The notes below the pieces were generated by a model that ran no database searches, was not told the origin of the DNA, and saw only the letters and a program-made list of their open reading frames with translations. A stretch of 64,000 bases of DNA, from contig OZ020523.1 of assembly GCA_963971425.1 (NCBI GenBank), forward strand, positions 16,860,867 through 16,924,866, in the 5' to 3' direction. Both the position numbers and the translations under genes were made by a program. Source of the DNA: Bryoerythrophyllum caledonicum. Taxonomy: Eukaryota; Streptophyta; Bryopsida; Pottiales; Pottiaceae. Of this stretch, positions 14,761 to 59,435 are shown one piece after another. Every line of letters starts with the position of its first letter. Positions within the stretch are counted from its first letter, which is position 1.

Positions 14761-14765
14761 ATGGT

Positions 14766-18458: not shown

Positions 18459-18493
18459 AACATTATGATGCCCAATTCAACTATTTCTGGACT
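18459..18493 (+). repeat. Left end of the giant element: direct repeat plus TIR
   Basis: The putative target duplication is 18459-18471, followed by 7 bp and the inverted repeat AACTATTTCTGGACT (18479-18493). A second ttctggacta lies 18 bp inward. Confidence 0.6.
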
Positions 18494-18678
18494 ATGAGGT
18501 GAATTCTGGACTAAGGACTAAAAGAAAGATCCGGAGATGTGCCTCATAAAAGATAGTGAAGCATAAAAGTCGGGGAGTTTAGAGTACTTTTCAAGCATTA
18601 AATGCATCACCAATGACACTTATGGAGGAAGAAATGGCTAGAGCGACCAAATTTGAATTTAGACAATACGTGAGTCCG

Positions 18679-18879
18679 GAACATGCAGCCGGATATCTCC
18701 GGATGAATATCAAAGTGGAAACCAGAAGAAGAACCGAGTCCTGAAAACAGAAATTGATGGACATACATTACATCACAAATGTGTGGTTGGGAAAAATGTG
18801 GTAGGGAAAAATGGGACAGAGATGCGGACAGAAATTACTCGCAATCGATAGAACATGCAACCGGATATCTCCGGATGAA
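18679..18879 (+). repeat. Two 29-bp direct repeats carrying the palindrome
   Basis: 18679-18707 and 18851-18879 share gaacatgca, one variable base, the variant palindrome CCGGATATCTCCGG and atgaa. They are the first palindrome copies inside the left end of the giant element and lie 172 bp apart. Confidence 0.75.
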
Positions 18880-19029
18880 ATCAGAGTAAGAGTCCAGTAC
18901 TAAACTGTTTCATTATAAAAAAGTGTCATACAATATTTAAAGGGTGGCCGTTGATAAGAGGCACGTGTAATCTATGGAGAATCGATTCAACTATTCTAAT
19001 TTTAGTGCTTTATAGATGCCCTCTACCTG

Positions 19030-19293
19030 TCATGTATGGTGTCTCCCATCTGTTATATAATGGACTATAGCCTTTCTAGGATTCTTGAATGGATCTAGAT
19101 CTACAACAACAACAAATTTAGGCCACAAATAATGCCTTGTTCTAGGATTAAATGAGGCCTTCTTAAAGATGTGGAGAAACCTAATATAGCCAGGCCTTCG
19201 AGTCTGTTTGCTGGCATAGCAAAAAAGAATCTCTGATAAGATGTCTAGGGGCAATAACACTTGGGCCGCCTCCAAGAGCCTATCTGGACGCAT
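19030..19293 (-). CDS. Small hypothetical ORF
   Basis: This 87-residue minus-strand frame contains a run of hydrophobic residues around ILSEILFCYAS. I do not recognise it. It lies downstream of the FCP1-like gene on the same strand and could be another remnant exon. Nothing else supports expression. Confidence 0.2.
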   Translation of the reverse strand: MRPDRLLEAAQVLLPLDILSEILFCYASKQTRRPGYIRFLHIFKKASFNPRTRHYLWPKFVVVVDLDPFKNPRKAIVHYITDGRHHT

Positions 19294-19958
19294 AGGAGAC
19301 CAAATCCTGACATTGAAATACCGCAGTAGTATTCGAATAACATCTGCCGTGTCATCAAAAGAAGGGAGCTACGCGGATCGGGACTTGGCCGAGTCAAGGA
19401 CCTCGTTCGAGCAGAGAGGACCGCGGAGAGATATGATTATGACCTGCGAAAAATATGGCACGACCATAGAATTAGAAATTGAACATTGAAAAGAAGAGAA
19501 AATATGGTAGGAGGAATTCAAGAGACATCCTCGACCGGAGATCTCCGGGTGCCCCTCCCAGACCAACGTTCCGCAGTCGAAATGGTCAGGAGAATACTCA
19601 ATAGTGTTCACAGATATTGGAGGGTGAAGTTTGGGGGCGAGACACCAACAATAACAAATAAAAAGAAGGACCTCAACAAATAACGTTAGTGACAACAACA
19701 TTTGTCTTCAAAATTGAAAGGTCAAAATCCGACAGACATTCTTGACGTAACATTTACAAAGCATAGAGTTTATACTATCCAGTATATTTCATTGATCTAA
19801 GGCGCCAAAATTATGCCCTCTAGCATGGAGCGGACCTCAGGGGAATTTTTGTCTACTGGATCACTAGCAAACCTCAATGGATTCCGTCTAACAAAGTCGG
19901 GAACATCCTCATTTGACGCTAGCAGTCCGGAGAGCCATGGAAGAAACATGGTGGTCAA

Positions 19959-22900
19959 CTAGGTTTCATTCGAAAACCCAGTCCATGATGGCGGATGAAC
20001 TGCACTGAAGGGATCGTTAAGGATGTTCTTTAGTGGTGTATCGTCCACAAGCAAGACATCCTTGGGAGATGTGGGCGACGCCTTGCTATTAAAAACTGTC
20101 AGGTCCTGAAGAAAAATAGGCTTCTTTGGATGGGATGTGAGCATATATGATGTTTTTGTGCAATCAGCCTACGTCAGGACTCTGACGCCTTCCGGAATGA
20201 CAGCACCTGTCTTGCGCGACTCCTTGATGATATCCACAATATTTTTTTCCATCACACTACTCCCGAATGAGACAATAGCCTTCTCTCCCACGAAGTTCAG
20301 GAGTTCAGTCGAACCAAGCCTTACTTTGATGTCTCTCGGTTGTCCCTGTTTAAATTCCCCCCTTTGCACAAGAATTCCATTTAAGTCAAACACGACATGA
20401 TAAACCCGTTGTTTTGTTACCTGATCCTCGATTGGAGGCTCTCGGGCGATTGTAGTAAACTTCTTCGGACCTGAACCCAAAATACAAGTACGTAGGCTGA
20501 GATGAAGAACTTGTACAGCTTAGAGAAATTGCAAATATACAATGTATAAAAGTGTTCCGCACTCACAATCCTGAAATGCTCGATGGAAGAATGAGCACTA
20601 TATAGATGATGGCACGTAAGTATGAATGCACATATTAGGCACCTGGGACAGTAGGTGGAGTATCCCTAGAAGTCTGAGCTACACCAGTGACTTGAGCAGT
20701 CTGTGCGAGGTTTCTGTCACCGACATCCTTTGATTGTATTGATCCTGCCGACACCTGAATACCAGTATTGAAGTGATAAGAATACGGTCTGCATAGAGTG
20801 AACTATCCTGAGAACAATCAAGAAGGTTTGATGGACAAGTAACTGTTCACCTTATCTTTCTAGGCCCTTGTCCGAACTATAGGCGGAGGAGGAGGAACTT
20901 TCGGCACATGATTCTTCCCGATTGCCTTCTTCTTCTCTTTTTGAGCCAGCTGCCCATGGCTCCGCGGAGGGCTGTGCGGAGGGCTCATAACATGTAATTC
21001 ACGCAATGTTTGTTGCGCCGATGCCTTATCCATCATGTGATCGGTGTCACACAAAGTCAGGTCCTCGGCACTCTTGGACACAACCTCCACTTCAGGACGC
21101 GTCGTCAAAGGGTTGTCCAGTGGGAGATCTCCAGGTGCTCTGTGGGTGGCGTCGAACTCCAGGCGATCGGACATTGCCGTGTCATTGTCCAGATTTGGCG
21201 GAGGAGAATGTTGCCTTTTGGAATGCGGACTGGTTTCCATTTGAGAGGTACGCCGCCTAGCGTCCGGAGTAGAGTCGCTTGTCGAACTAGGCGAGGCACG
21301 CTTGACAGGAAGAGGTGGTTCATCATCATTTACCTGCATGGGGTCGATTGGGGTGTCCGCACCGATGATTCATGCGGCTGTGGCCAAGGACTGGAGTCTA
21401 AAATTGGGAACCGCTAATGAACTCGGTTCATTCTGCACATCAACATCAAGCATCGTGGCATCAGTCGTCTGCGTCACATTGACGAAGTCAGTGTGGAAAA
21501 CATTAAGACGCAATACAAAAGAAAACGGTATCATACACCCGGAGATCTCCGGTTCAAAGTTGTCCTTCTCTACCGGGCGAACTAAAATTGAACATGGCAA
21601 TGATAAAGAAGACTCCTGAAGAATGGAGGGCATCTGAATTGAATGAACAGCCGGAGATCTCCAGGTAAGGTAGTTTCCGTAGGCGTTATACCTCACCGAT
21701 GTAGTTCATCCTTGACATAGCCTGTGTTTGAACCCCAGCGCCCGGGGTCGACCTAGTGATGTCAGTCTCCTCTGCCTCCTCGGGAACGGCGTCGGTAACG
21801 TCGGCTAAGATATTCAAGTGGAATTTGAATATTTGTTCTGCGCTGGATTCGGCCTTGACTTTGGCATCTTCGCTGTTCACAATCTCGAGGACCCGCGCGT
21901 CGTGAGTCTGCAAATAAAAAAAAACCTGAGTAAGGCGTCATCTAATACATATAAGTGTATCTGGACTGGAAATCTGTGACGTTGGATTGCTTGGGAAGGG
22001 ATGTCCTGCTTACCAAGCCGAGGAATGTTAAATGTGGTCCTCCATGAACATTAACGACCACCATACCCTCTCTGATGCATCTCGTGAACAACGAATCAAG
22101 GACCGAGATCCTCAACTGTGGGACATCGGTTTGCTTCCAGCGCTGGATGATATCTTTATGTCGAGCGGCTGAAAAGAAGGCCGGCATTTTTTCGGGGTGG
22201 CCTTTGAAGAGCCTTTTGAATGGCTGAGCAGGCGTCTCGCTCGAATCGTATTCATACAGGAATACGCAGTATACTGTCTCCTTGACCCCAATTATTGGAA
22301 TCGGAAATCCATCACCAGGGTGGGGGAAGTAGTAGACCACATGAGTTGCCCACAATTTTACCTTGCCTCTGGACTCTCTCTACCGAAGAGTGATGTACCT
22401 CATCAAAGTTCAATTCAACGAATCCCGCGGCGTCAGTGATAAGAACCGACGGTGATCTGACCCTCGTCCGCCCGTCCTTCGTGTCCACTTCGAGATGGTC
22501 GAAAATGGTTCTGAAGTCAAGCGCATCCAGGACCTGTGCACGACATATGTCGTCTTTCACGCGATAGAGGAAAAAGAAGTAAAAGTGAGGGTCAGTTACG
22601 TTACGCCACTGCTGAATGTCTGGCATGATAAGTACTTTGGCGATCTCGCTCCCTCTGTCAGGCATAACCCTGCAGGTGTATTTGGAGTCGAACAGAGACG
22701 TGTCATCCGTGGGTGTGACCTCGGCAGCATCTTCTATGATGTGTTGACTCCAAATGGACACGAGGAAGTCTAGGGTGTGGTCGGTATCCTTGTTAATTGC
22801 CTTCAGTCGACCCTCAAGCCAAGCTTTACCCTTGGCAGAGTGATTCGCAGCGTCCACCCAGGACTCGAGCTGGACCCGTCCAATATTCCTCTCTTCGGCA

Positions 22901-23232
22901 AATGCGTCGCACTGCTCCTTCGTGTATGGGACGAAGTCTGCAGACTTCGAGGGAAGGGGGTGCGACTTGTATTTTAGCATCAGCTCATTCTTCATTGCCC
23001 GGATTCTCTTCTCCCTGATTGCCGCATTTTCAAGAGTCTCCGCCTGCCCTTTCATAGTACCTTGGTTTGCCGCTTTGGACGACTTTATACAGACCTTCTT
23101 TGCGAGCACTAAGTCCGCGAGGTAGTCTAGGTCTTGAGCGCGCATTTTGTAAAGAGGCTTGAAGTCGTTCTGCACCAGAGGTTTCCGCTTCAGTTTAGCT
23201 GGGTCCCCCGTCTTCCCGCTCGGGGAGGGCAC
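19959..23232 (-). pseudogene. Multi-exon gene ending in an FCP1/NIF-like HAD phosphatase domain
   Basis: Five minus-strand exons can be read: 23232-22014, 21907-21692, 21468-20851, 20755-20643 and 20470-19959. All four introns have GT-AG ends and the frame is kept at every junction. The last exon has YHVVFDLNGILVQ (motif I; DLNG in place of DLDG, a variant I recall in plant NIF-like proteins), a following FVGEKAIVSFGSS segment, and LLVDDTPLKNILND (the DD motif). FCP1/SCP enzymes dephosphorylate Ser/Thr, classically on RNA polymerase II. The middle is Pro/Ser/Lys-rich and looks disordered. The first exon has no recognised domain. Breaks are a frameshift near 22370, a TGA at 21370 (best read as CGA to TGA), a TAG at 20860, and a TAG at 20169 where family members have Trp. 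Confidence 0.6.
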
Positions 23233-23868
23233 CTAGTATGGAACAAAGGAACACGTGCGAACAAGCCATATTTTATTGTAGGCTATTTACCATATTTTTT
23301 AATTTTTATAGCACAATATAAGTACAAAAAATTCTAAATTCCTTTATTTTCGGCTATCCTTCAATATTTATATTTACAAATTCAATGGAATAAACTATAC
23401 TCTAATTTCATTATGAAATTTTCATTTACCACCAATAAATGGCATCAAATTTGATTATGCAGTATATGCTTTACTGTCATAACAAATAACTAGCGCAAAG
23501 AGTGGACTAATGAAAACATTCAAGAATTGGCTAACCTATTCACAAAGACAGTACATTGAAGATAATTTCCATTCAAGACAAGACAAGGCTAATCAGAACA
23601 AGACAAGGCAAACATTGATAACGAAAAATCAGAAAACACACACACCAAAGTACTAGAAATGGCCGAGGTTATGTCCTCATTGGCTCCTACGATCAACCAC
23701 CAAAGTGTTTCCCAAACACTGTTGTGATACAATTTCAACTTCTCCAAAAACCACCCTCAAGTCTCTAGTTCCTTGAGCCGAACGAAGCAGCACACATGCC
23801 TGTCACAGTGTGCCTTAAGATATAAGATATCCTTCAGGTTTACACACTAAACACTAGTAAAACAGGAA
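23233..23868. other. AT-rich spacer or intron
   Basis: A splice acceptor (ctag/gtgccc) marks the start of the phosphatase gene's first visible exon at 23232. No coding feature is recognised in this stretch. Confidence 0.35.
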
Positions 23869-24465
23869 CTAGAATATGGAAGAACCAAAAAAACCATGAA
23901 TAGGGACAAAAACATGGAGGAGATGGGGAGGACTACCTAGAACGTGTGTACTTTGCATGCGTAGGGCGGGAGTCACCCACACCTTGTTTGCACGCAACGA
24001 CAAAAGATCTCCCCGAACAACCTTAATCTCCCTATTGCAGTCGTCCTGCAATGCGTCACGAAGTCGCCCAAGCTCCAAGACGGTGAGTTGTTGTAGTGGC
24101 AGGGTGCGGAGGCGGGCATCCTCCATTAGCGCGTGGCACTGCCAGGACTTTGAGTAGAGACGACATGCTTCTACAAAGTGGGCCTGAATGAACTCCTGAT
24201 CGTTGATCCAACGACCTACCGGCTCATGCGCTCGGTCCTGCAACAAGTTCCAATGGGCCAGGCAGAGTGCTTGAGCCTCTATAGAGCTGTCAATCGCCTC
24301 CCGCCATGACTTGCAAGTGCTCCTCGCTGCTGTGACGTCTACAAAATTTGGTGTCGGGTGGATGAATCGTGGATCGAACTCCCATGGATCCGTAGCTACG
24401 TCGAGGTGGCGCAACAAACTTGGGATCACGACGTCCCTAACAACCAACTCCAGGCGATGATCCAT
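23869..24465 (-). CDS. F-box-like hypothetical protein
   Basis: This intact 198-residue frame starts MDHRLELVV. Residues about 45-70 (VTAARSTCKSWREAIDSS) resemble the C-terminal half of an F-box, where a Leu-x-Cys-x-x-Trp segment contacts Skp1. The rest is helical and Leu-rich with no known motif. It sits just downstream of the DDE-like transposase gene on the same strand and could be its partner or a captured fragment. The F-box assignment rests on one short motif. Confidence 0.35.
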   Translation of the reverse strand: MDHRLELVVRDVVIPSLLRHLDVATDPWEFDPRFIHPTPNFVDVTAARSTCKSWREAIDSSIEAQALCLAHWNLLQDRAHEPVGRWINDQEFIQAHFVEACRLYSKSWQCHALMEDARLRTLPLQQLTVLELGRLRDALQDDCNREIKVVRGDLLSLRANKVWVTPALRMQSTHVLGSPPHLLHVFVPIHGFFGSSIF

Positions 24466-24619
24466 GGCTTGATGAAGGAATGAAAACGAAAGAAACGTAA
24501 AACACTAGATAATGCGGCGTCGGCCTAAACCCTAAAACCCAGGAATCAACTAAAACTGAATAGGAAGGGAGAAAGACATACCAAGAAGAGGATGTTCAGC
24601 AGACGGGTTGGGGGGGAAT

Positions 24620-27274
24620 TCACTTCTTACTGGCCACGAATTCATTTATTGAATTTGCATCTACAGGGTCTAGGGAGAAAATGCTAGTACTAGGATTGAA
24701 CTCAAGGGTAACCATGGAGATAATTGAATCAACATCTACCCACTTGCAAGAGGTATGATTGTAATGAAATTTCAAATGACCAGGGGCCTCTGTAAAATAC
24801 TGTAAATACACCATGCAGGTGGGAGTAGACAGGCCTTTCTTTCCGGGCTCGGCTACTCGTTTTTGCAGGGCGTAAGGACCCGAAGCACAATTGACCACCA
24901 ACACAAGCCGAGGCAAACTTTGATGAAGGGGGTTAACCATTACAACCCTGGCAAATCCCCCGATTTTGTCAGATCTAAAAGAATCAACAATTTTATTGTA
25001 ACCATTGTCGCCTGAACCAACCACTGGTTTATACTTTGACACACAAACATGATCAACCTTAGACCCGCAAAAACCAGACAATGTATCCCATTTTGCTTCG
25101 TAAGCTATCCTACCCTTTACTTTTGTTTCATCTTCGGCCAACAGTACCGGGACTGGACCAACAATCATGTGCTTCGCTTTAGCATCTCTATAGATTTGTG
25201 CAACTGATGCAAAGATCTCTGAATGCTCTCCTGCAATAAACTGAAGTCCTTTCTTACACTCTCGCTTTGTAGTAGAATATGAAGGACCATCATAATTTAA
25301 TTGGAACAAATCACACATTCTACGCCCACCGAAGACCTTCATAGCTTGACTGAAGGCCTTGGTGTTATCGCTGAATCTGAATCCACGCTTGCTACGATTA
25401 AGATTCTTAGCCACGTCCTTCAAATAATCCCACAAGGCTGGTCTGCCGCCAAAGGCACCGGTTCTGTGAGCAAGCAAAATGTTATTACAAAATTTAACAA
25501 TATTGCCTTGCTCCTGGGATCCCTTTGCGGCCTCTTTGAAAGTAGGGCGCTTTACTTTTAGTTGCACTATTCTTGCTTTACAAGCCCAATGTGACATTCT
25601 TTCATGACGATATTTTTAACTCAAGTTTCGGCCATGTGCAGCTAATTCCGCCATAGACATGTACCCTATTCTTCTACCTCCTTCCGTTCCCCTACAACCC
25701 CGCTTCTCTATAGCTTGTTCTTCACGAAGAACCCGACCCCTGAAATCAGCCTCGTCAGGAATCCTTGCACATTTTGGACATGTCAAGTCTAGGAACGGAT
25801 CGTCACCTAACGCGAACCTCAAGCACTCTTTATGGCGGAATACACCATTGACCTTTACGATATTATCATCGACTCTCACATCTGCTTTCACGTGTGGTTA
25901 TTATCATCGACTTCCAAACCAGTTGTTACGAGGGTGGGGATCTTAGAGCAATGCACTTACGTCATAAATCTTCCCGCCATAGGAACATTTGGGCCCTCTT
26001 AAACCCCAACACATGAAAGAAAACAAAGCAGCCCTTTTGGAGGATAGAAACTCACCCGGCTCACCGTTCTCCTGCAAATGCCTGAAGAATTTGTGCATTT
26101 GACTCTGGTTGGAATTCCTACTATTTCCAAAGGATCTACTCGGCCTCCCCCTTTTCCCCGAATTCAAGGCTGATCTTTGGGATCCTTCGCTCCGACATTT
26201 TTCCACAACAGTTGCATGATTGGATCCTTGGACATGATTGACCAAGTTTGCCTCCAAATTCTTTTTTGGAGGACACAACTGCAAGAAGCTGCCACTGCAG
26301 AAAGTGCATTTGACCTTCACAAAGAAACATCTTACGTTGTCTAATTCTGTGTCACCAACTACCTCAAACGTTGGTCGGCCTCCACCAATGTTGTCGTTCA
26401 CCCCTTGTGAAATCTCGAGCTCCTCTTGGACTAGTCCTTTGTGATCACTTACAGTACGGACAACGGGCTTTCCCTTCTTTGCTGTTGATTGAGGGTGATT
26501 AGCAAAGTCAAGGCCCTTTCGACAACACCAATTCCTTATGTGCTTTGAACTCATTGTGTGGCTCTTCTTGAAATTGGAAAAAAGGTTTCTAACAGAATCC
26601 TTTGAATGCTCACCGGTGTCTTCTCCGAAGTCAACCACGCACTCGGCGCAATGCAACTTCACCACTGCAGCTTTATGTTGATCCCATGTTTTTAAGTGCC
26701 AAATTTGATCTTCGAGGGAAATATTTGCCAGATCCTTTCTAAGCTTCTCTTCGCCACTTTGATACCAACCCAATACCTCCTTCGAGATCAATACTGATTG
26801 CAACATGGGCTCAGATCCGGTGTCGTCTCCCTCAATCCTAGCTGAAACACTAACCCTTGATGAGGCCGTCGGATTAGTGTCCGTAGTAGACAAGGGCTCG
26901 GTGCTGGCTCGGCCGCCAACGTGACCATTATCAGTCCCCGAATTCCAGTCGATATTGAAGTTAGCGTCCTCCACACGACGTCGCTTTGCTCCCTCCTCAG
27001 CCCCCTCAGCTTGTCGCACGACCAACACTTCAGATGGGAGCTTGTTCAAACGCTCAAGTTTTTGCCGGATCCGACAACCCTCTTCAACGTCCCAAAAATC
27101 ATATAGCCAGTCAAGAGCAGGGGGGTCGTCAAGAACTACCCTAAATGCTGCATACGAGTCGCCGTCATTCACATCAATAGTACCCACCCAATCTTTGCCT
27201 CCATCTTCGATATCGAAGGAATAAATCTTCACCTTTTTTCCTGCCATACTATCCAATACAAAAAGAACCCACAC
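24620..27274 (-). pseudogene. DDE-like transposase with N-terminal zinc fingers
   Basis: Minus-strand frames at 27274-25943, 25891-25616 and 25597-24620 follow one another in the same frame, broken by stops near 25945-25900 and by a TAA at 25616. The natural start is probably the internal Met in DSMAGKKVKIYSFD. Candidate zinc-binding sites are CAEC with downstream His, CTFC followed by a His pair, and CPKCARIPDEADF. The last part contains LLAEDETKVKGRIAYEAKWDTLSGFCG-like residues, an acidic motif, beta strand and G-F string recalling the start of the RNase H fold in several eukaryotic transposases. The family is not one I can name. It lies in the gap between the ParB-like gene and the phosphatase gene and lacks the CCGGAGATCTCCGG palindromes, so it is probably a separate insertion. 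Confidence 0.45.
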
Positions 27275-29548: not shown

Positions 29549-29736
29549 TGCAATTGTCTGGTCATTAATGGGAAGCCGAAACTATATCACCAGATATATT
29601 CCTAGAAATTGAATCCATGAATCGTGCTTCCAAATCTGTATCACAGTGCCAGGAGGGGAAGGTCTTCGCACTATTATCGAATCTTCAGATAGTCGAATGA
29701 TCTCGATTCGCTAGAAGTATCTTGCATGCGCGACAG

Positions 29737-30199: not shown

Positions 30200-30299
30200 C
30201 TGCAGCAAGTACGGCTTTACAGAGCACTAATCGCATCATATCATCACGCGATTATTCACATTCATTCACAGAGAGGTTTGATATATAACTCTTGAAGTT

Positions 30300-34763: not shown

Positions 34764-34861
34764 CTAGCCCAGCCAACGATATTGACGGTGGTCATCCAGT
34801 TCGTTTCTACATGCACTCATTTTCTCATTGAGGGCATGAGCCACCAGCCGATCATCCACCG

Positions 34862-37830
34862 ATGCAGCACGGGAGTATGTCTGACTCAGATTGGTGGGAG
34901 AGTGACTCGGAAGACCTTGCCATGGTCGCAGCACAGTGCCCTGATTTTGGACATGTGGATTACACGGGAGAAGATGATCTATCCCAAGAGTCTACTAGAA
35001 GGTCGGAGGTTTTGTGGTCAGGAATGTTTGTGAACCTCATGAGGCCAGGTTCAGGCGAAATAGGAGAAGCGTCCATTGTTGAGGTTCACCCCGTGGGACA
35101 ATGGCTTGGAGTTGACATACCAGTCGGTTCTAGTGAGTTCGTATTACTTAGGCCAATGGCCATAACGTCCACGGCGGAAGAATTACCACTCATTCCTTGC
35201 AACGCGGATACGAATCACTTGTTCACACACTTCGGCGGATTGTCCTGTGGAGAAGGGCAGATGTCATGATTCCAACCGGAGATCTCCGGTCCGACGAGTC
35301 CCCATTCGTACCACGAGAGCGATGGGTTGGACTTAAAGTGCAGAGGTTGGACGGAAATGGGTTGGTGCACTGCTCTGGGAGAATCATGGCCGCGTTACCA
35401 TCGGATCATTTCCAAAGTGGATGCTTGAGAGAAGATAATATTGGTGTAACTGCCCTCGACGTTTTTGTTGGGGACACGGAAAGAATAATGAGTAATGAAT
35501 CGTGGCCCATTCTTGAATGTCGTTTTCCTTCCGGGCGGTCTTTGAAAAGCACAATTGATCATTTCGCATCCCTCCCTTTACAACCTGATTCTGGTGCTCA
35601 TTTGGGGGGTCGTGCGAAGGAGCCTTACCGCTTCATTTCCCAACAGTAAGACCTTAACAAAAAGGAATCCTTATACAACAAGAGGACCACGGATGACGAA
35701 ATTTGCAAAGTCAGCTCAGAAAGGTGTTGTCCCAAACGATGCTGCCAATATTTTCAACAATCCCAAACTCTTTCTGTTAGACAGGAAATTCTATGACAAA
35801 TCCTTTGAAGATAGAAAGGAGTATGCAATCTCGGTAGGCGGGCAGTTCCACTCCATTGATGGGGACGGGAAGAGAAAGTACGTCACGCTCTTGGGAGAGG
35901 AGGTCTGCTCTGTTGCATGGTATACGATCCATGGAATTCGGAAGTCCACATTTCATACGTACATCAGACATTTTAGTAGAGGAATCATCAATGCAACTCA
36001 CGGTAACAAGGGCATCAAGCGCCCACGGCTTGCCACTACACAAGCGATGGGGTCAATGACGTCCACTATTAATGACAACGCGGATCAAATGCCTCACCAA
36101 ATGCGGAGCGTCAAGAATGGTCGGATTGACACTCTCAAGTATCTTCCTGCTGGAAACAACTGGAAGCAAATTCGAGCCAACTTCAATGATGTACGTTATC
36201 AATCCCTGCATATTGCTATGGATTCGTACACTCCTTCCTCAGTCGACCGAAGTCCTAGTTTCTGAACCAGAGATCTTCGGTTGGGTCATCGTTGACATGC
36301 ATTGACCTTCAATTGATTAACTCTATACTTCGCTCAGTCTGTTGGATTGTTCTTCAGAATTTCTCCTCTCACTGGGATATTATTTCATTTTGCAGACAAA
36401 CGACTCCTACGGTCTCCCTCCTGTAAGTCAGTCCACAGTTAGTAGGGTAAGGAAGGAATTCTTCGGGAATGTTGCTATTAAGCCATCTGGAAGCACCTTT
36501 GCAAAATGCAGTACTTGTAATGAATTCAATCAATTCTTACTGACGACTCCAAAGGGAACGCCCGCATACGAGCTATTCTATAGCAACAGGCAGGCACACT
36601 TGAATCACCAACAATCATGCAGGAAACTTTACGCGACATGGAGAGAGGAGTCGAAGGCGAAGCCGGTGACCTTTCTTTGTGTCATTCACGACAAGATGGA
36701 CACTACGAAGACGGGCCTTCCACGCATGTGAAGGACCACTAAGGCGACATCTGGTCTCGGACAGCTTCCCATGAATGTGACCGGAATGGTGGCACACGGT
36801 CATGTCGACGGAGCGTATGCTCACTATGCTCCTGCTTTATGGCTTGGAGATTCGAACGCCACCATATCCTCCCTGACAAAAACTTTTTAGGCGGCTTGAG
36901 GGAGCACCTCTACATGAGAGGCGCGCGTTCTTCGAGCACCCGCCTCCAAACTCGATGTTCGCGGCGCTCATGAGGGAAAAAAGCAGGTGCGTTGACGCTT
37001 TAGAGCCCATTGAGCCGAGTGCTTTTAAGGGACCGAAACCGTTGCCACCGAAATTGTTTCCATAGCTCGACAACTGAGCGAAGGACAATAAGAACCAATA
37101 CTTGATGGCATTCTTATCACTGCTAACAGCTCGATGTATTTTCAAGGAGATACAGGTTGGCTTCTTGGTGGTCGGACATACGCATGAAGATATTGATGCT
37201 TACTTTAGTCATCTATCGAAATAACTGAAGAAAAGCAGTACATATATTGTAGCGGATTTGATGAAGGCATTCATGAAGTCACAGAAACTAGCCTTCATGC
37301 CGGAAGTTATCCAAGAGGTGGCCGACTTTAAATCGTACGTCGATGGCTACCTATGCAGCAGGGCGACACGTCTGGTGGGACTAAGTGATATGCATCTTTT
37401 CAAGTTCTACGTTGACGATGAAGTTCAAGAAATCTGCCGTTGATGCAGAGTGGTTACCCATGAACAGAGAGCCGATAAAACTCTGGAAGATAGATGACAG
37501 CGGACGTCCCAGGCTTCCAACAAGTTTTACCAAGCCCGTCCCTTTCAAGCCCATATGGGGTAATGAGGAGCAAAACCCGGTCGGAAACCAAGATGTTGCC
37601 AGAGGCAAGGCCAAAAAAGCGACAGAGAACAAAAACTTCATAGAGACGGAACTTCGGAAGTACGTGGACTACTGGGCATCCGGAATGTCAAAGTGCGCAG
37701 GGTACGCAGACTCCATCCGCCCATACCTGCAGTACTGGAAGAACGTCATCGACGAGCTTGACAGGCCACTTCCACAGACACCCTCCGAGCTCGAAGAGGG
37801 ATTCTGGCCTACCCATGATTGGAGAGGCCC
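34862..37830 (+). pseudogene. DUF7869-like transposase, 5' part (interrupted by gypsy)
   Basis: Successive plus-strand frames at 34862-35269, 35197-35649, 35647-36189 and 36397-36729, followed by shorter frames to 37830, encode a long protein. An intron from 36190 (gat/gtacgt) to 36396 (ttgcag/aca) removes a palindrome variant and joins the exons in frame. Recognisable segments are CSTCNEF, then IHDKMDTTKTGLPRM, then LDN-stop-AKDNKN at about 37060, and VGFLVVGHTHEDIDAYFS at about 37160. This order of Asp-rich motifs is what I recall for DUF7869-type proteins of eukaryotic transposons, which look like DDE integrases. Breaks include stops at about 36729, 37062 and 37222 and frame changes near 36890 and 37430. 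The reading frame continues on the far side of the gypsy insertion at 44021. Confidence 0.55.
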
Positions 37831-38266
37831 TGTCAGGGACCAAATTCAGAACAAGGATTGAAGGCAAGAGAGAGAGCTAACTTGATATTAGAACAAGAAC
37901 TAGAACAAGAACAAGGTACAAGAAGGCCTTGGCTAGACCACAAGAGTGAGTTGTCGAGACAGAAGACACCATCAGCCTCGACTTCTATTTATACTGTTGG
38001 CGTAAGGCCCTTATGGAAGCTTCTCGAGCGACTTCCACACAAACTAAGAAGCTTCTCCAATAATTTCCTAAGAACTACGAAACTTCTCTAACAACTTCTT
38101 ATAAGAAGCTTCTCTAACAACTTCCTAGAGTCTCCTAGAATCTTCTAAGGTTTTCTAGAACCTTCTATAATCTTCTAGAATCTTCTAGAGTCTTCCTAGA
38201 GTCTTCTAGAAACTTCTAGAGTCTTCTAAGACTTTCTAACGTGTCTTCTAAGGTATGTCCGTGACA
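37831..38266 (-). repeat. Gypsy 3' LTR (left)
   Basis: Begins tgtcagggac next to the GGCCC duplication and ends gtccgtgaca, so on the minus strand it starts TGTCAC and ends TGACA. The part from about 37960 to 38266 matches the right LTR closely. The outer 130 bp does not align well with the right LTR and may have been replaced. Many TTCTAGAA-type heat-shock-element motifs lie at 38120-38235. Confidence 0.75.
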
Positions 38267-38280
38267 TTACCCCCTCCTTT
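38267..38280 (-). other. Gypsy polypurine tract
   Basis: On the minus strand AAAGGAGGGGGTAA lies directly before the TGTCAC start of the 3' LTR, where plus-strand DNA synthesis is primed. Confidence 0.7.
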
Positions 38281-38477
38281 AGCTTCGAGGTCTCCGAGAA
38301 GTCTAGGTTGTTGCAAGCCTACCATCGTAAAAAGTTGAAAATTTGTCGCATACAATCTGCGATAAACTCCAGTTGTCGTTCTTGAGGTAGGTGGTTCATC
38401 GGTCCTTGCAGCCATCGGTAGTGTCCAACGCCTTCGACTTCCGACCAGGCATGAACTTCAGTGTCTTCATTGTGGAA

Positions 38478-38705
38478 CTATCCTGCAAAAACTCCCTCGG
38501 CAATACCGTCGTAGGCAGGCTCTACTTCAAACACAATCACTAGGGACATGTTACTCGGTATCCTTCGTCTTCTTCGTGGTGCAGGTAATTCTTCATCTCG
38601 AGGTTGCCTTCGCGGTGTAGGTGGCTCTTCGTCTCGAGGTCGTCTTCGTGAGCTACTAGACTGAGATGACATGACTGGCATAGTATCTATCTCCTGGCTC
38701 TCCAT
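38478..38705 (-). CDS. Small Arg/Pro-rich ORF between chromodomain and 3' LTR
   Basis: A 75-residue frame begins MESQEIDTMPV and contains two near copies of RRPRDEEPPTP-like repeats encoded by short DNA repeats, followed by an acidic tail. Such extra ORFs occur in some chromoviruses at this place. No domain is recognised. It could also be accidental. Confidence 0.3.
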   Translation of the reverse strand: MESQEIDTMPVMSSQSSSSRRRPRDEEPPTPRRQPRDEELPAPRRRRRIPSNMSLVIVFEVEPAYDGIAEGVFAG

Positions 38706-38860
38706 AACGTAGGAAACTAAACTAGGCAACAATAGAGAAAACAAACTATAGGCATAAAACAATGAACTTAAGCCGCAATTTATACTTTCTAACCACCGGT
38801 TCACGGGTTCCTTCCTCCCCTTCTTCGTAAGGTCAGAGGTCAAGAATCGTCAAGTAGAAG

Positions 38861-39355
38861 TTATTGCTGGAAAGGCTTTGGCTTATCAGAATAGCACTGA
38901 TAAAATTCCTGGACTTTCTGCGGCGCATTATCCAGATTTTCCGTTGGTTCCCACGTTCGCTCGTTGATATCATAGCCGTGCCAATGAATAAAATACTCCA
39001 ATTTGCCATGTTTATGGCGAGAATCAAGAACTTTTTCCACCTCATATTCCACATGATTATCGATTTCAATGGAAGGTGGTACCGATTGTCGTCTTCCAAA
39101 AATGGATGATTCTTTATAAGGCTCTAGAAGGGAAACATGAAAAACTGGATGTACCTTCATTGTAGATGGTAACTCCAGACGGAATGCCACTGGATTGATT
39201 TGCTTCTCGATGACAAATGGGCCCAATCGCCGGTAGTCCAACTTATCACAAGGCCGCTTGGTCTTGATATTCCGTCGAAGAAGCCATACTTTATCTCCAA
39301 CGTGGAAAGGCGGTGCTTGAGTCCGAAATTTATCTGCAGCTGCCTTGTAAGAATC
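38861..39355 (-). pseudogene. pol: Gypsy integrase C-terminus with chromodomain
   Basis: The segment [20 protein letters not shown] is the usual bridge in chromoviral integrases. The chromodomain follows, from [12 protein letters not shown] through [17 protein letters not shown] to [10 protein letters not shown]. It keeps the aromatic residues that bind methylated histone H3 in functional copies (Tyr, Trp and Tyr/Trp positions look conserved). Chromodomains guide integration to heterochromatin. Confidence 0.85.
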
Positions 39356-40615
39356 TTAGGCCGTTTGTAGTTGAAGCTTCAAAGTATTTTGAAGCTGTAA
39401 TAGTTGATTCGCAAAGTCCTCAGCCGCTGGATTGTTAGTGGTTGGCGAAGTCAACAAATCAAGTTTCGGATGATAGCCATAATTTGAATAAAATGGCATT
39501 TGTTGAATTGAAGCATGGAGAGTATTGTTATATGCAAACTCTGCGAGCGATAGATATGTCGTCCTGTTGTCTTGCTGATAGTTGATGCTGCATCGTAAAT
39601 ATTGCTCCAAGACTTGATTAACCCGTTCCGTTTGGCCGTCGGTTTGAGGATGGAAAGCCGAAGAAAGCTTGATTTCTACCTTCAATGTAGCAAAAAGACA
39701 TCTCCAGAACTTTGATACAAACTGGGTACCTCGATCGGATACGATGTCGTCTGGTAGGCCATGATATCGGTAAACGTTATCAAGAAAAAATCTTGCCGTG
39801 TCTTCGCTTGATGATGTCTTCTTACAAGGAATAAAGTGTGTCATCTTTGTAAGTCGATCGACCACAACAAAGATGCTATCAAAAGAATTTCATAGCGGCA
39901 AATCCGTAATGAAGTCCATAGAAACTGAAGACCATGGTCGACGCGGAATAGGCAAAGGTTGTAGAAGACCATAAGGGCGATGCCGAGGATTCTTTGAGCT
40001 TGAACAAATGTCACAAGAGGTGACAAAATCCTTCACATCCTTCCACATCTTGGGCCACCAGAAATCTCCGGAAATAAGTTCTAATGTCTTGTTGATTCCA
40101 AAATGTCCCGCGGCTGGAAAGTCGTGACGAGATTGAAGAACTCGGAGTCCTACATACCCTTTTGGGATATATAGTCGCTCTTCGAAGTATAAAAGATCGC
40201 CTTCTACCTTGAAATTGCCATTATTGATACGTTGTTTGATATCAAGAGCTATAGAATCTTCAATGGTCGCTGAACGTACCTGATTGAGGAAGTCAGCATC
40301 AATTGACACAATCGCAGCGGAAAGCTGAAAGTGCTCGGGCTTCAATAATGTCGTACATTGTAGATCAAATGCTGCTTCTCCGGCCCGTGGCGTAAGATAC
40401 GATCTCCTCAATAGTGCATCTGATAGACCTTGTTGCTTACCACGTCGATAAGTGATAACAAAGTCAAATCGAGATAGCGACATACTCCATCGAGCTTGAC
40501 GACGATTCAAAACCCGGGCGGACATGAAATACTCCAAGTTCTTATAATCTGTATATACAGTCACCGGATGCGCCGCTCCCTCAAGAAAGTGGCGCCACTC
40601 TTGAAAGATATCCAC
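39356..40615 (-). pseudogene. pol: Gypsy integrase
   Basis: After the end of RNase H comes the HHCC zinc finger (H..H in HDFPAAGHFG and C..C in CDICSSS). The catalytic core follows with D at SMDFITDLP, D at SDRGTQF, and the expected Glu about 35 residues later in the TERVNQVLEQ region. The ORF is split by TGA at about 39890 between DLPL and NSFDSIFVVVDRL in the same frame, and ends at a TAA at 39356 that is probably CAA to TAA. Confidence 0.8.
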
Positions 40616-40857
40616 AATAGCAAGAAGTTTCTTGTCGTGGATCTCATAGTTAATCTCAGCAGGAGATAGTTACGAGAATAGGAAACAACTAGGTGGAGCT
40701 TCTCGCCTTTGTCCATTTGTGAAAGTACAACTCCTAAGGCAAAATCTGAAGCATCAGTTTCCAAATAGAAAGCCTTTGTAAAGTCCGGATGTACCAAGAT
40801 TGGAGCCGTGGTAAATGCTATTTTAAGATCTTGAAATGCTTTCTCTGCTGGAAGCCC
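40561..40857 (-). pseudogene. pol: Gypsy RNase H
   Basis: [18 protein letters not shown] is the start of a Ty3-type RNase H. A frame change near 40660 separates it from the rest of the domain, which continues in the following frame ([30 protein letters not shown]). Confidence 0.75.
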
Positions 40858-41757
40858 CTATTCAAGCTTATCTTTACAAGTCAAGCGAGTGAGCGGAGCA
40901 GCTATTCGGGAGTAATTCTTGATAAAGACCCGATAAAAATGAGCAAATCCAAGAAAACATTGTACATCTCTAACTGTCTTTGGAACTTCCCAGCACATGA
41001 TTGCTTCCACCTTCTTGGGATCCATCTTCAAGCCCTCCGTAGTTGCAATGTATCCTAGAAATTCCGTCTCAGGTTGGTGAAACATACACTTCTCAAGTTT
41101 GGCATACAATCCCCGCTTGCGTAATTTTTCGAGGACCAAACGAACGTGTTTCTCGTGCTCGTCTTGGTTCTTAGAAAATATCAAAATATCATTCAAATAG
41201 ATGACAAAAAAATCGTCTAGGTGTTCTCGAAAAATGTCATTCATCATGTGTTGAAAAACTGCCGGAGCGTTGGTAAGACCAAAAGGCATGACATTATATT
41301 CAAAATGGCCATACCTCGTACGAAAAATTGTCTTCCATTCGTCTCTTTCCTTGATTTGCACAAGGTTGTAAGCTCCCCTTAGATCAATCTTTGTAAAGAT
41401 CTTGGCGCTCCTAAGTTGTTCAAGAAGACTGGAGATCAAAGGTAGCGGATAGCGATTCTTCTTTGTTACCTTGTTGAGATCTCGATAGTCCACGCACATC
41501 CGTAGAGAACTATCTTTCTTCTTTACAAATAAGATGGGTGCCCCCGCCGGTGACTTTGAGTGCCAAATGAAATTCTTGGCTACATTCTCGTCAATGTATT
41601 AACGTAATTCCGTCAACTCTATTTGCGATAGATTATAAATTGGGCCAAAAGGTGGTTGCGCACCTTCTTGTAGGTCTATGGCACAATCATATGGTCGGTG
41701 CTCCGGTAGCATGTCGGCGTTCTTCTTCTGAAACACATCTTCAAAATCCTTGTACTA
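40858..41757 (-). pseudogene. pol: Gypsy reverse transcriptase, catalytic Asp changed
   Basis: The order of reverse transcriptase motifs is complete: [43 protein letters not shown], then [15 protein letters not shown] and the [11 protein letters not shown] and [12 protein letters not shown] segments. In the catalytic box the expected YLDD reads YLND (AAT for GAT at about 41195). Loss of one of the metal-binding aspartates should abolish activity. A stop near 41600 precedes the conserved part, and a TAG at 40858 ([15 protein letters not shown]) separates it from RNase H. Confidence 0.85.
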
Positions 41758-42210
41758 CTCTGGTATACTTGTTGCAAGAGTCTTTTTTTCGCAAATTGGA
41801 GTTGCATAGATAACAAATGGAGTACCCTCCTTCGACGATCTTACGAATGCTCTTGTTCCAATAAATAAGGGCTTCTTGATTGGTGATTTTTTAACAGGTT
41901 TTTTCTTGGAACGTTCTGTAGAGAATATCATCTTCTGCAACTTCCAATCTATAGATGGGTTATGCTTTTCTAACCATGAAACGCCAAGAATGACAGGATT
42001 TGACGGGGTTCTACTGATATTGAAAATAATACGGCTATTATGGCCTACAAATGTCACTTCTATAGGTATTGATTCATGAGTAACACTTTCAGAGGACAAA
42101 GGTTGTCCACCTATTACTTCTACATGAACAGGTTTGGATTTCTGTATAAGAAGAATATTATGATCTTTGGCAAAGTCTTCATCTAAAAAACAAGCTGAGG
42201 CTCCTGAATC
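41755..42210 (-). pseudogene. Gypsy aspartic protease
   Basis: The minus strand near 42205 reads LDSGASACFLDEDF, where DSGA is the active site of retropepsins. The conserved PVILGVSWLEKHNP segment follows. The frame ends at a TAG at 41755 just before the polymerase connection (YKDFEDVF). Confidence 0.75.
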
Positions 42211-42242
42211 TAATTAAGCTAAGGTTTTGAGGTTTTGAGGGC

Positions 42243-43376
42243 CTAAAGACAAGGGGACTGTAAAACAACGGGCAGGTTGAGTGGAAAGGTAGGAACCTGA
42301 TTGTTGTTGTGTAACCGAATTGTCCAGCCGCACGGTTCGTATTGTGGCTGGGCATCTTTGTTTTTGAGAATAATTGCGCCGCTGGTCTTGATGATGTGTC
42401 GATTCTGTTTCTTCGGACAATTTCCAGCCTTGTGACCTTCGTCACCGCAATACAAACATAATTTTTTCTCCATACGACGCTTCTTTTCTTCTGGAGTAAG
42501 GGGTTTAAATCGTACTGCATCAATTTGCATGTCTTCTACATCTGAATGTGAATTCAGACTGCTTGCCGACATGGTTGGAGCGTAACGGGTCGTATCTTGT
42601 CTGGATGAAGTCCAGGAACGTTGATCTTGGCGCCGTTGAAACAATCTATTATCGCACTTGACGGCTTGACTAATGGCTTCATTCAATGTTCTTGGGTCAG
42701 GAAGAATCAATAGTAAATCCTTCACATCGTCCCGTAAACCCTAATAGAACTGACTAATCAAGGCTTCTTCGTCCCAGTTGATGTCGCATGCTAATTGCCT
42801 GAAATCTGATGCATAGATTGATGTCAAACGTGCTCCTTGTCGGAGTGATCGAATCTTTGTTGTAGCCCATCGTGCTTTGTCATTCTCTCCAAATGCTTCC
42901 GCAAATGCCTCCAAAAAGGTTTCAAAGTTGTTCAAAATTGATGAGCCTTTCTCGAACAATGGAGCAAACCATGATAAAGCTTGCCCTGTAAGTAAGGTTC
43001 CAACCAATCCAACACGCGATTCTTCCGTTGGATAGCGTTCAGGCTGTAAAACTGTTATTAATCGAATTTGATTGATGAATCCTCGAAACTTAGAGTGTGT
43101 ACCATGAAACTTATCTGGAAGGCTGATTCGAGGCTCTTTTTGTTGTTGAACAAGTGGGCCTTGTCGAACTATATGCGAACTTGCTTATTCCGGTGTAGAA
43201 GTATGAAGTTGGTGAACTCCAACTTGAGCTGTCCCAGATGCACCATCATTATGAGTTCTTGCAATAACTCCTTCAATCTCCGCAGTTCTAGTTGATAAAG
43301 CCGTGAGAGCGTTCATGATTGCGTCTAACTTGGACTCAGAAGTTTCGGTCATACTGATATCTTGACCTCCAGTCAT
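42243..43376 (-). pseudogene. gag: Gypsy gag
   Basis: Starts MTGGQDISM at 43376. The central part has a retrotransposon gag segment (LLTGQALSWFAPL ... FRQLACDINWDEEALISQFY). Near the end is a CCHC zinc knuckle, CLYCGDEGHKAGNC, preceded by a Lys/Arg-rich stretch; it packages element RNA. In-frame stops at 43185 (GAA-TAA-GCA, probably CAA to TAA) and 42741 (QFY-stop-GLRDDVKD, probably TGG to TAG) break it. Confidence 0.8.
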
Positions 43377-43606
43377 TCTGAAGAAAAAAATGAATCTAAA
43401 GAAACACAATATTAATCTAGAGGAGGGTAATCCACAACCTCTAAAACGCCTTAATACTTTTAAAGAGAGGGGTGATCCACTCTCTCACAAAAAAATAAAG
43501 CTCCAATATTGTGAAGAAAGAAATATCAGTTTAGATGAGGATAATCCGCAACTTCTAATGCGTTAGTGCACCTTGCAAGAAGAGGGGTGATCCACACTTT
43601 CCAAGA

Positions 43607-43624
43607 AGAGTCTAACTCTGATAT
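43607..43624 (-). other. Gypsy primer-binding site
   Basis: On the minus strand the string ATATCAGAGTTAGACT directly follows the 5' LTR. It resembles the TGGTATCAGAGC-type site complementary to initiator tRNA-Met used by many plant LTR elements, with changes in the first bases. Confidence 0.5.
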
Positions 43625-44015
43625 TGAGAATGAAGTCAGTCTCGACAAATTTTTTATACTGTTATTCGAGACTGAAGACACCTTTAGCCTCGACTCCTAT
43701 TTATCTTGTTGGCGTAAGGCCCTTATGGAAGCTTCTCGAGCGACTTCCACACAAACTAAGAAGCTTCTCCAGTAATTTCCTAAGAACTACGAAGCTTCTC
43801 TAACTTCTTATAAGAAGCTTCTCTAACAACTTCCTAGAGTCTCCTAGAATCTTCTAAGGTTTTCTAGAACCTTCTATAGTCTTCTAGAATCTTCTAGAGT
43901 TTTCCAGAGTCTTCTAGAATCTTCCAGAACCTTCTAGAGTCTTCCTAGAGTCTTCTAGAAACTTCTAGAGTCTTCTAAGATTTTCTAACGTGTCTTCTAA
44001 GGTATGTCCGTGACA
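43625..44015 (-). repeat. Gypsy 5' LTR (right)
   Basis: Shares the core of about 300 bp with the left LTR, including the TTCTAGAATCTTCTAGAG-type arrays at about 43840-43985, and ends gtccgtgaca next to the second GGCCC. The inner edge is set at tgagaatg because a primer-binding-site-like string adjoins it. Confidence 0.75.
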
Positions 44016-44507
44016 GGCCCTCATGAGGGAGGTGCAAATCCGCTAGGATTGCTTCCACAACCATTGGATGTCACTCCCGAAGATGAGGTTCTTGAATCTA
44101 ACTGCGGACCTGCTAATGAAGCCCCGAAGTCCACATTTAATCCTTGGCAAGACATCCGTCATGGGTCTTCGGTTCTAGTAAGACCTAGTGATCCAGACAT
44201 CTATCATGTCTGGCAGGGAAGAGCAGTTTTAGACGTCGTCAGGGATGAGGGTAATGCCAACCACGGAAAATTCATCATTAAATATTGGGAGCCTGATAAC
44301 AAGCAAAAGAATCTGAAGAAGAAGTACCAGGACTGCTGGGAAGCCACATGGGTTCCCGACCAAGAGAAGCATGTATGGTGTCATGTGAGTTCTGTGGTGT
44401 TTGCGACTTGGTCTAACAAAGTAAATCAACTGACGAGGTCCATTCCGCGTAAAATGAAAGAAGCAGCGCTTGTGAACTTAGAGAAAGCGAATGCCGCTAA
44501 TCCCTGA
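44016..44507 (+). pseudogene. DUF7869-like transposase, 3' part
   Basis: When the gypsy element and one copy of its GGCCC duplication are ignored, the frame ending DWRGP at 37830 continues here as HEGGANPLG and runs 160 more residues to a stop at 44505. The segment is rich in Trp, Lys and Glu, with CWEATWVPDQEKHVWCH. I see no known domain. It is the C-terminus of the transposase gene. The continuity is the best proof that the gypsy element landed in a coding exon. Confidence 0.6.
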
Positions 44508-45342
44508 GGGCTGACTAGTCTATCTTGTTTCTCACGCTCATCTTGAAATATCATTGTGAGAAGCAAATCTTCCAGTTTGTGAGTTAGGTTTTAGGTGATC
44601 GGTGCCAATAAATACAATTCCGCAGTGTAGTACAGTAATCTCCCTGAGTCACCACATCCTTACGGATTTGAACCGGAGATCTCCGGCTGTAGAGACGATT
44701 TTCATCCGGCTTTGATTTTCGACATCCAACCTAGCAACGCCCTCATGTCATCTTGAAGATTACCGGATCCGTGCTCTTCTAGTCACCGTAATTCGGATTC
44801 TTATAGTTCTCACAGTATTACGATTTTTTGGTTAATTCCACTGGAATATTATAAGGCGTGTACTTCCCTCGGAAAGCTCACCAGAGATCTTCGGCTGTTT
44901 ATTCGGAAGAGGAACCGCTTCTTCTCGACTTCCACAGCTGACAACGGTTGTTGTTTGGCCAGATATTATCTTCAAAAACCGTGGATGGAAGGATGTTCAT
45001 GTATTGCCATGTTTATCAGTTGAAGACCTAGCCGGAGCTCTCCGGATAGGCGATTCACATTAACCATTCTCAACAATGGGGTCCATAAATCGAATTTTGA
45101 GCGGACCTTGGTGTTCTTAGGAGTATTGTAAAATATCCGGAGATCTTCTCTGACTACGATACTGTAATTCATTTGACGATGGAACTTCTCCAAAAAAAAC
45201 AGAGTCGTCTTGGGCTCTCTTTTGACTGAATGGGTGGATACGAAGGCTAGTATATAAGAGGGTTCAACAGTGCAACATTTCATATGTTTTGTGGTTCAAC
45301 GTTAAGTCTTTTTTGTCCATAGCCAGAGTGGAGATAGAGGTG
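44508..45342. other. Spacer with palindromes and TATA-type promoter
   Basis: Between the transposase 3' end and the acidic-protein gene lie palindrome copies at 44673, 44881, 45032 and 45137. A TATA box (tatataag at 45251-45258) lies 85 bp before the next ATG. Confidence 0.5.
45251..45258 (+). promoter_or_regulatory. TATA box of the acidic-protein gene
   Basis: TATATAAG lies 85 bp before the ATG at 45343, at a spacing that fits a short 5' leader. Confidence 0.5.
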
Positions 45343-45669
45343 ATGGCTTCTGCAAGTAGGAAGAGGGAGAGGGAAGATATGGATTCGTTAAAGAGGAGAG
45401 TTACACGAAAGATGGAGGGAGAGTACGTTCAACAGGAGGACGACGACATCAACTACGACGCGAAGGACGAGAAGGAGATCGACTCCGAAGTTGATGAGAC
45501 CCTCGATGGAGATGCTTCGGTTGAAGATGAGGAAGAGGACGACCCGTGGTATGAAGACGAGGAGGAATCTGACTCAGAGGGCGGCTGCAGCCCATTTCAA
45601 ACAGGGTGTGACACAGGGTCTGATGTCGATTCAGACATGTACGCACCGGCACACTGGAAGGATCGTTAG
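45343..45669 (+). CDS. Small acidic Asp/Glu-rich protein
   Basis: This intact 108-residue frame starts MASASRKRERED and ends KDR. The first 30 residues are basic. The rest is acidic, with long Glu/Asp runs (EEDDPWYEDEEESDSEGG), so it is probably disordered and nuclear. The ATG at 45343 is used because it is the first after the TATA box. It is the only undisrupted gene with a promoter-like element in the giant unit. Its role is unknown; a histone-chaperone-like or transposition-accessory role would be speculation. Confidence 0.5.
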   Translation: MASASRKREREDMDSLKRRVTRKMEGEYVQQEDDDINYDAKDEKEIDSEVDETLDGDASVEDEEEDDPWYEDEEESDSEGGCSPFQTGCDTGSDVDSDMYAPAHWKDR

Positions 45670-46189
45670 GGCTCTTCAGAGAGGTAGTGCAAGGATAGAA
45701 ATTGTCGTTAGATCCAAGAGTTTTGCTAAGACCAGGCACAGCTTTTTCGTACATTTTCTCTTGTATCAGACGCTTTTGTAATTAGACTCCCTTTCGAAGT
45801 TGCATTGTCGTTTTTGAATAGCCGATACATTTTTTCATCAGTAGTTTCCTGTCGACCGGGTATCTCTGGATGGCTGAACGACATTTTTACATGTCAGTGC
45901 TTAAAGCTCTATACTGCACTGTACTCTTCTTCTATACTATATTCCTTCATAAATGTACAGTTGACCATATGACATAGTAATATGTTTTATAAACGTTTTA
46001 GCTTGAAAGTTGTTATCAATTTTCGATCGTGACTATCACAATTCCAGGCTTGTTCTATCACTGTAATCGATTTATATCATATCACTGAAATCATCCGGAG
46101 ATATCCGGCTGAATGATCAAAGTATGTTAACTTGGTATCCCTTTCAATTTCATTCCTGCCAGTATTTTACTAGACTAGAATCCTTCTTC

Positions 46190-46243
46190 TTTATTTCTGG
46201 ACTTTGCGAAGTCCAGAAATAGTTAAATACAACATTATGGTGC
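46190..46243 (-). repeat. Right end of the giant element: TIR, hairpin and direct repeat
   Basis: The inverted repeat copy is 46210-46224 and the direct repeat copy 46231-46243. The inverted repeat is half of a perfect hairpin: atttctggactt at about 46193-46204 pairs with aagtccagaaat at 46209-46220 across a 4-nt loop. Confidence 0.6.
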
Positions 46244-59434: not shown

Positions 59435-59435
59435 A

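Follow-up and report, generated by a model that had tools for sequence, protein, structure and literature searches.

A 64,000-nucleotide stretch of Bryoerythrophyllum caledonicum DNA (assembly GCA_963971425.1, contig OZ020523.1, positions 16,860,867 to 16,924,866; the window) contains at 18468-46235 what is almost certainly one decayed copy of a family of giant cut-and-paste DNA transposons. The family has well over 100 copies in the genome. Its copies have common ends, are flanked by target-site duplications, carry genes under purifying selection and are studded with a palindrome, CCGGAGATCTCCGG. A divergent lineage of the family (lineage B; the window belongs to lineage A) carries a different palindrome. 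The explanation that we consider probable as a whole is that the element is a giant transposon whose palindromes are recognition sites of a DNA-binding protein that it encodes. From sequence comparison, the binder is most likely an element-encoded protein, probably the product of a two-part gene with a ParB-like half and a C-terminal half.

The earlier note on this DNA had reported perfect inverted repeats of 15 bp (18479-18493 and 46210-46224), and these match exactly. They carry little weight as evidence when only the window is considered, as 5 of 100 window-only shuffles gave two matches at up to 2 mismatches. This would suit a non-mobile locus in which chance inverted repeats surround unrelated genes, but comparison of many copies refutes such a reading, to which we give practically no credence. 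In the searched genome (437 Mb, 894 contigs) the 15-mer AACTATTTCTGGACT occurs exactly 375 times (191 forward and 184 reverse), and its reversed-letter control never on either strand. The earlier note had proposed a search for other intervals bounded by the inverted 15-mer, and at least 29 exist among the matches listed (100 of 375, all on contig C1): 58 of these, counted by hand, form 29 pairs, plus strand and then minus, spaced 14.9-22.9 kb apart, and the remainder stand alone or belong to pairs with wider or narrower spacing. We read ten pairs whole (each as two halves) and the ends alone of 19 more and of one 37.5-kb pair; with the window, this gives 31 end pairs. A 4-bp target-site duplication is exact in 27 of the 31, compared with 12 of 930 deliberately mismatched pairs. 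The four pairs without it are three of the 29 C1 pairs and the 37.5-kb pair. What had been described as a 13-bp direct repeat is really this duplication, TATG in the window, plus chance agreement between flanks and ends. The terminal inverted repeat measures about 26 bp: it runs 11 bases further outward from the 15-mer, starting with ATG, and this sets the bounds of the element. Some copies have ATGCCATATTTAACTATTTCTGGACT at both ends. The ten whole copies (about 15.0-17.8 kb) share their ends with the window element, lie dispersed at different genomic sites and are 85.7-98.2% identical to one another over their aligned parts. We looked for copies with different ends and found none; the left repeat of lineage B is also nearly the same.

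In the window and in the ten copies (L009-L028), the element is asymmetric at its ends. One end has a hairpin of about 30 bp, formed by the terminal repeat facing itself, and the other has a direct second repeat unit. Copies L126 (C1:31108870) and L150 (C1:30501000) have an identical 10-bp left flank, ttttccacaa, and different right flanks, which suggests duplication or recombination between copies.

The proposal of a 27.8-kb giant DNA transposon was right about the transposon and wrong about its size. When the window is aligned with the ten whole copies, two stretches, together 10.85 kb of the 27.8 kb, remain unaligned (nested insertions in Table 1), and the core without them is 16.9 kb. Because both insertions are later and are missing from the ten other copies, neither the open reading frames (ORFs) at 24623-27283 nor those of the Gypsy type belong to the gene set of the element.

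Gene families were scored in a less damaged copy, L017/L018 (two halves of one copy). The ORFs of the window element do not reach the cut-off of any transposase or phosphatase family (36321-36728 lacks PF25273 and 20172-20519 lacks PF03031), because this copy is decayed, with four stops in the DUF7869 exon and two each in the ParB-like and phosphatase-like exons. In the less damaged copy, the DUF7869-like transposase that had been proposed is clear (PF25273 in L018:4458-5867, E 9.1e-46, 156 bits against a curated cut-off of 26). The median ratio of nonsynonymous to synonymous substitution rates (dN/dS), taken among copies, was as follows: DUF7869, 0.23; C-terminal half, 0.27; ParB-like half, 0.31; first transposase exon, 0.33; phosphatase-like exon, 0.59. 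A non-coding stretch treated alike gave 0.83. These are values from copy pairs that are not independent, with codons that are stops in a copy skipped. There are 169 homologues of the DUF7869 protein (4841 candidates scored), and among the matches listed (120 of the 169) the only named organism is the liverwort Riccia sorocarpa. The proteins of R. sorocarpa and of other contigs share the domain and the nearly invariant motifs LDN..KDNKN and GHTHED; the eight aligned R. sorocarpa proteins are 30-36% identical. Searches of viral contigs for the transposase and for the ParB-like protein gave no confirmed relatives.

The FCP1-like phosphatase of the earlier note holds as a domain (PF03031, the NIF phosphatase domain, in L017:1821-2540, E 2.3e-13, 50.6 bits against a cut-off of 21.8), but its catalytic motif is missing. 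NIF/FCP1-like phosphatases have the catalytic motif DxDx(T/V). This motif is absent from the gene in both lineages, with DLN- in place of DxD: its position reads DLN(G/R)(V/I/L)L in 9 of the 11 lineage A copies, window included, where a pattern search located the region; one contig of lineage B has DLNGVL. Thus, the catalytic activity of the predicted protein is doubtful. A PDB sequence search with the phosphatase-like and ParB-like proteins found no matches, and a PDB search with three profiles matched only a carbonic anhydrase (E 0.82), which we take as chance.

The two-part gene lies on the minus strand. Its two long exons can be connected by a phase-0 GT-AG intron, positioned by visual inspection in a single copy per lineage, so that the gene is apparently spliced, and the halves together are estimated to encode about 900-1000 amino acids. 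We found five homologues of the first half (8000 candidates scored) and six of the second (4590). The alignment of the first half shows an invariant GGQHT and an LNQ stretch, which we take to resemble Boxes II and III of ParB.

The palindrome CCGGAGATCTCCGG occurs 2718 times in the genome, and the same letters reversed, which also form a palindrome, three times. Among the matches listed (50 places of the 2718), all lie on C1, within four stretches of element size; by visual comparison with the exact element ends, one stretch is bounded by both ends and three by one. Allowing one mismatch, the window has 20 palindromes in the core, none in the 36.2 kb outside and none in the nested insertions, which bears out the earlier claim that the palindromes are confined to the element. 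The ten whole copies contain 5-17 exact palindromes each. In copy L017/L018, none of 23 sites (up to 2 mismatches) falls in five strongly conserved exons of our own choosing, where 7.5 would be expected (P ~1e-4). The palindromes could instead bind a host factor for transcription, insulation, splicing or replication that the element recruits; regulatory motifs may likewise avoid strongly conserved exons and lie in an intron, as one site does. We regard this as decidedly unlikely, as every listed palindrome is in an element and the preference of the host would have to shift between the two lineages, unless lineage B comes from another organism.

Within the palindrome, the centre is the constrained part. 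Across copies, aligned bases differ at 31 of 3754 positions in the central AGATCT, 508 of 5008 in the arms and 9193 of 68286 in the flanks, and AGATCT outside palindromes shows a difference of 0.061; choosing sites by their match to a reference biases these differences downward, which we estimate could roughly halve them at most but not lower them sixteen-fold. An earlier count had given 0.040 for sites and 0.093 for flanks.

Near both ends of the element, the subterminal palindromes are centred on a GATATC-type motif (as in CCGGATATCTCCGG) in place of GAGATCTC; three are in the window (Table 1) and L017/L018 has their equivalents.

A genome search with the ParB-like protein gave 107 scored matches, with a subset on small contigs that is nearer to a foreign homologue. 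Lineage B was compared through three small contigs, partly or wholly read (62.3 kb), and lineage A through 176.6 kb of copies. The gene order is the same in both. Protein identity between the lineages is 39-43% for the phosphatase-like exon, 34-36% for both halves of the two-part gene and 54% for the first transposase exon, T1 (one contig). The DUF7869 exon was not seen on the lineage B contigs, and the contig that carries T1 ends inside it. The left end of lineage B, present on two contigs, is ATGCCATATTTAACTACTTCTGGACT, with 1 mismatch in 26 bases to L019 and 4 to L017. A-type palindromes number 181 in lineage A and 0 in lineage B; B-type palindromes, TCGKGRGATCYCMCGA (at least 15 of 16 positions), number 0 and 50. 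Genome-wide, TCGTGAGATCTCACGA occurs 41 times (reversed control, 0), always on contigs C200 to C836. Both types share the centre GAGATCTC, often with CA..TG flanks, and in both lineages a palindrome lies inside the phase-0 intron between the halves of the two-part gene. Thus, because lineage B keeps the left terminal repeat, the gene order and the intron site and swaps the palindrome, the palindrome has changed while the left end has hardly done so. Lineage B may be located in unassembled regions or in another organism. On C259 (14732-20479) and C836 (83400-89189), a palindrome-free stretch of about 6 kb separates the ParB-like and transposase parts; the two stretches are about 98% alike and have the appearance of an insertion that several copies share.

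We propose that the transposase would act on the ends of the element, and that the palindromes, mostly in its less conserved parts, would be recognition sites for the ParB-like/C-terminal protein. This protein might load on or mark the DNA of its own element, through coating, a chromatin state or base modification around AGATCT. A separate element-encoded binder is favoured because the left end, which the transposase must recognize, is almost the same in both lineages, unlike the palindrome arms and the two-part protein. Binding to repeated motifs is common among transposases, and CACTA and MULE elements have subterminal repeats and element-specific repeated motifs. The palindromes could therefore be internal binding sites of the transposase complex (the DUF7869 protein or the T1 part), in keeping with the GATATC-centred variants found subterminally at both ends. 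We consider this unlikely. The motifs here differ from those of CACTA and MULE elements in being palindromic and in occurring throughout the element, intron included; the left terminal repeat is nearly constant between lineages that have different palindromes; and T1 is closer between the lineages than the ParB-like half is. A more specific form of our proposal is that this eukaryotic transposon encodes a site-specific loading system of its own: the ParB-like protein would recognize some 15-20 palindromes scattered over each copy and, without involvement of the transposase, spread along the element or mark it. Diverging lineages would change their palindrome together with the protein, each labelling only its own copies. 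This form is tentative, and we hold it to be possible, at somewhat less than even chances.

Several observations weigh against a ParB-like binder of the palindromes. The ParB relationship of the first half, as the earlier note had assumed it, is one. The Box II motif GxxR is not found, as GGQH stands in 6 of 6 aligned proteins and in lineage B; Pfam and NCBIfam give no ParB match for six ParB-like members; and PHROGs matches a ParB-like partition protein (phrog_1033) in one of seven proteins, at E 0.011. Profile comparison scored 14.2 against 79 Spo0J relatives (best of 30 column-shuffled controls, 25.0) and 14.8 against 14 Spo0J relatives plus eight phage ParBs (best of 200, 24.9). On these sequence comparisons, the case for ParB membership is weak, and we keep 'ParB-like' as a label. 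In the passages available to us, PMC12704722 describes divergent ParB folds in eukaryotes and phages, in which Box III is often missing and Box II is GxxR. For the C-terminal half we found no methyltransferase homology, and no methyltransferase family matched any of seven proteins. The sites themselves raise further points: 2 of the 23 in copy L017/L018 fall in the first transposase exon; within lineage A the arms are nearly as variable as the flanks; and six control hexamers outside sites, not confined to non-coding sequence, gave values between 0.014 and 0.203, with one nearly as conserved as the core. Only two lineages are compared; of the two ends of lineage B, the left was seen and the right was not, and its exact palindrome occurs only on small unplaced contigs that may come from another organism. 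Finally, the ParB-like half is not singled out by having changed along with the palindromes, because all genes of the element travel together.

The element resembles one described in the alga Ectocarpus. Sola1 transposons duplicate 4 bp at the target site, and the present element does so too. For the related Sola2 group, a 4-bp duplication is stated in the passages seen of PMC3627910. According to passages of PMC12477816, Sola1-1_Ec32 of Ectocarpus is a giant Sola1 transposon of 21.5 kb, with a gene on the opposite strand for a 1104-amino-acid protein that is ParB-like and a DNA methyltransferase, and it is suggested there that such proteins may bind their own element and modify it. Both elements have giant size, an accessory gene opposite the transposase with a ParB-like part, and a large product. 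They differ in the second domain, reported as a DNA methyltransferase there and undetected here, and we liken them by description only; the main text of PMC12477816 contains neither 'palindrom-' nor 'phosphatase'. The statement in the earlier note that no described plant element has this gene set was thus overstated, although Sola1-1_Ec32 is algal and that main text names no phosphatase.

The Ectocarpus gene, reported to encode a ParB-like and N4C/N6A methyltransferase protein (PMC12477816, as far as seen), and the constrained centre AGATCT would both fit self-marking of a restriction-like kind, in which the two-part protein would methylate AGATCT in the palindromes, and DNA so marked would be spared by another product of the element. 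We think this very unlikely. The C-terminal half scored 17.6 against an N4C/N6A methyltransferase profile (shuffled maximum 23.4 in 60 shuffles; positive control, 410), a DPPY motif was not found by eye, and the ORFs scanned with Pfam contain no nuclease family. Degenerate methyltransferase motifs in the C-terminal half were considered and dropped, as the profile tests did not support them.

With bacterial ParB-parS, the element shares a possible fold relation in one half of the protein and several palindromic sites near the gene; it differs in having GGQH for GxxR, no significant profile match and sites over the whole element. There is no partition partner among the element ORFs scanned. In the open-licence literature, we recognized no description of these palindromes and found no paper on DUF7869.

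Table 1. Features of the element in the window (positions of the window; stops are those of this copy).
Feature	Position	Strand	Basis
Target-site duplication TATG, left	18464..18467		end-pair comparison
Entire element: 16.9-kb core and two nested insertions	18468..46235		31 end pairs compared
Left terminal inverted repeat ATGCCCAATTC-AACTATTTCTGGACT	18468..18493	+	copy and end-pair comparison
Palindrome, subterminal variant CCGGATATCTCCGG	18689..18702		
Palindrome, subterminal variant CCGGATATCTCCGG	18861..18874		
Region matching 226-aa ORF of less damaged copy (L017:1016-1693), no family; approximate coordinates	18994..19671	-	copy comparison
Palindrome CCGGAGATCTCCGG, exact	19535..19548		
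NIF/FCP1-type phosphatase-like exon, 2 stops, motif DLNGILV; start approximate	19799..20519	-	PF03031 2.3e-13 in L017
Low-complexity ORF region, weak constraint, dN/dS 0.72	20863..21705	-	ORFs, copies
Palindrome, exact	21539..21552		
Palindrome, 1 mismatch	21651..21664		
C-terminal half exon of two-part gene, broken by nested insertion	21945..23218	-	copy alignment
Nested DNA transposon, 9-bp duplication GTCTTCCCG, ends CTCGGGG/CCCCGA; not part of element	23219..27888		copy alignment
5' remainder of C-terminal half exon, past nested insertion	27889..28070	-	ORFs, copy alignment
Palindrome, exact, between ParB-like and C-terminal exons (in intron placed in L017)	28088..28101		
ParB-like exon, 2 stops, over two ORFs	28158..29581	-	ORFs, copies
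Palindrome, 1 mismatch	29737..29750		
Palindrome, exact	29884..29897		
Palindrome, 1 mismatch	29973..29986		
Palindrome, exact	30059..30072		
Palindrome, exact	30135..30148		
Palindrome, 1 mismatch	30186..30199		
Palindrome, exact	34468..34481		
Palindrome, 1 mismatch	34583..34596		
Palindrome, 1 mismatch	34653..34666		
Palindrome, 1 mismatch	34750..34763		
Transposase first exon region (T1), 3 stops	34832..36262	+	copy comparison
Palindrome, exact, inside exon region T1	35276..35289		
Transposase DUF7869 exon (T2), 4 stops	36321..37830	+	PF25273 9.1e-46 in L018
Nested LTR (long terminal repeat; Gypsy-type) retrotransposon, duplication GGCCC; not part of element	37831..44015		copy alignment; ORFs
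Transposase last part (T3), split off by LTR element	44016..44504	+	copy alignment
Palindrome, exact	44673..44686		
Palindrome, 1 mismatch	45032..45045		
Acidic protein ORF, dN/dS 0.46	45226..45666	+	ORFs, copies
Palindrome, subterminal variant CCGGAGATATCCGG	46095..46108		
Hairpin-forming inverted repeat, right end, TATTTCTGGACT..AGTCCAGAAATA; left end instead has direct second TTCTGGACT	46192..46221		sequence, copies
Right terminal inverted repeat, read on minus strand, ATGTTGTATTT-AACTATTTCTGGACT	46210..46235	-	copy and end-pair comparison
Target-site duplication TATG, right	46236..46239		end-pair comparison

Telomere-like repeats of AACCCTA type lie in the core between gene blocks (33240-33403), and parts of them align in several copies. 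The flanks of the element contain a LINE-like element (RVT_1, zf-RVT) and an ORF that combines RNase H with a weak PCIF1 WW match (59426-63015 and 14352-16730), as well as tandem arrays at 52078-52382 and 57747-57989, with units of 21, 22 and 86 bp and of 37 bp.

In sum, this kind of element is known from the Ectocarpus transposon Sola1-1_Ec32, and the palindromes are its unexpected part. The passages seen of PMC12477816 give no target sequence. The present element offers candidates, in two versions from two lineages and with a constrained centre, and these make the suggestion of self-binding or self-modification directly testable. The element may provide an example, in a eukaryote, of mobile DNA being labelled as self or non-self.

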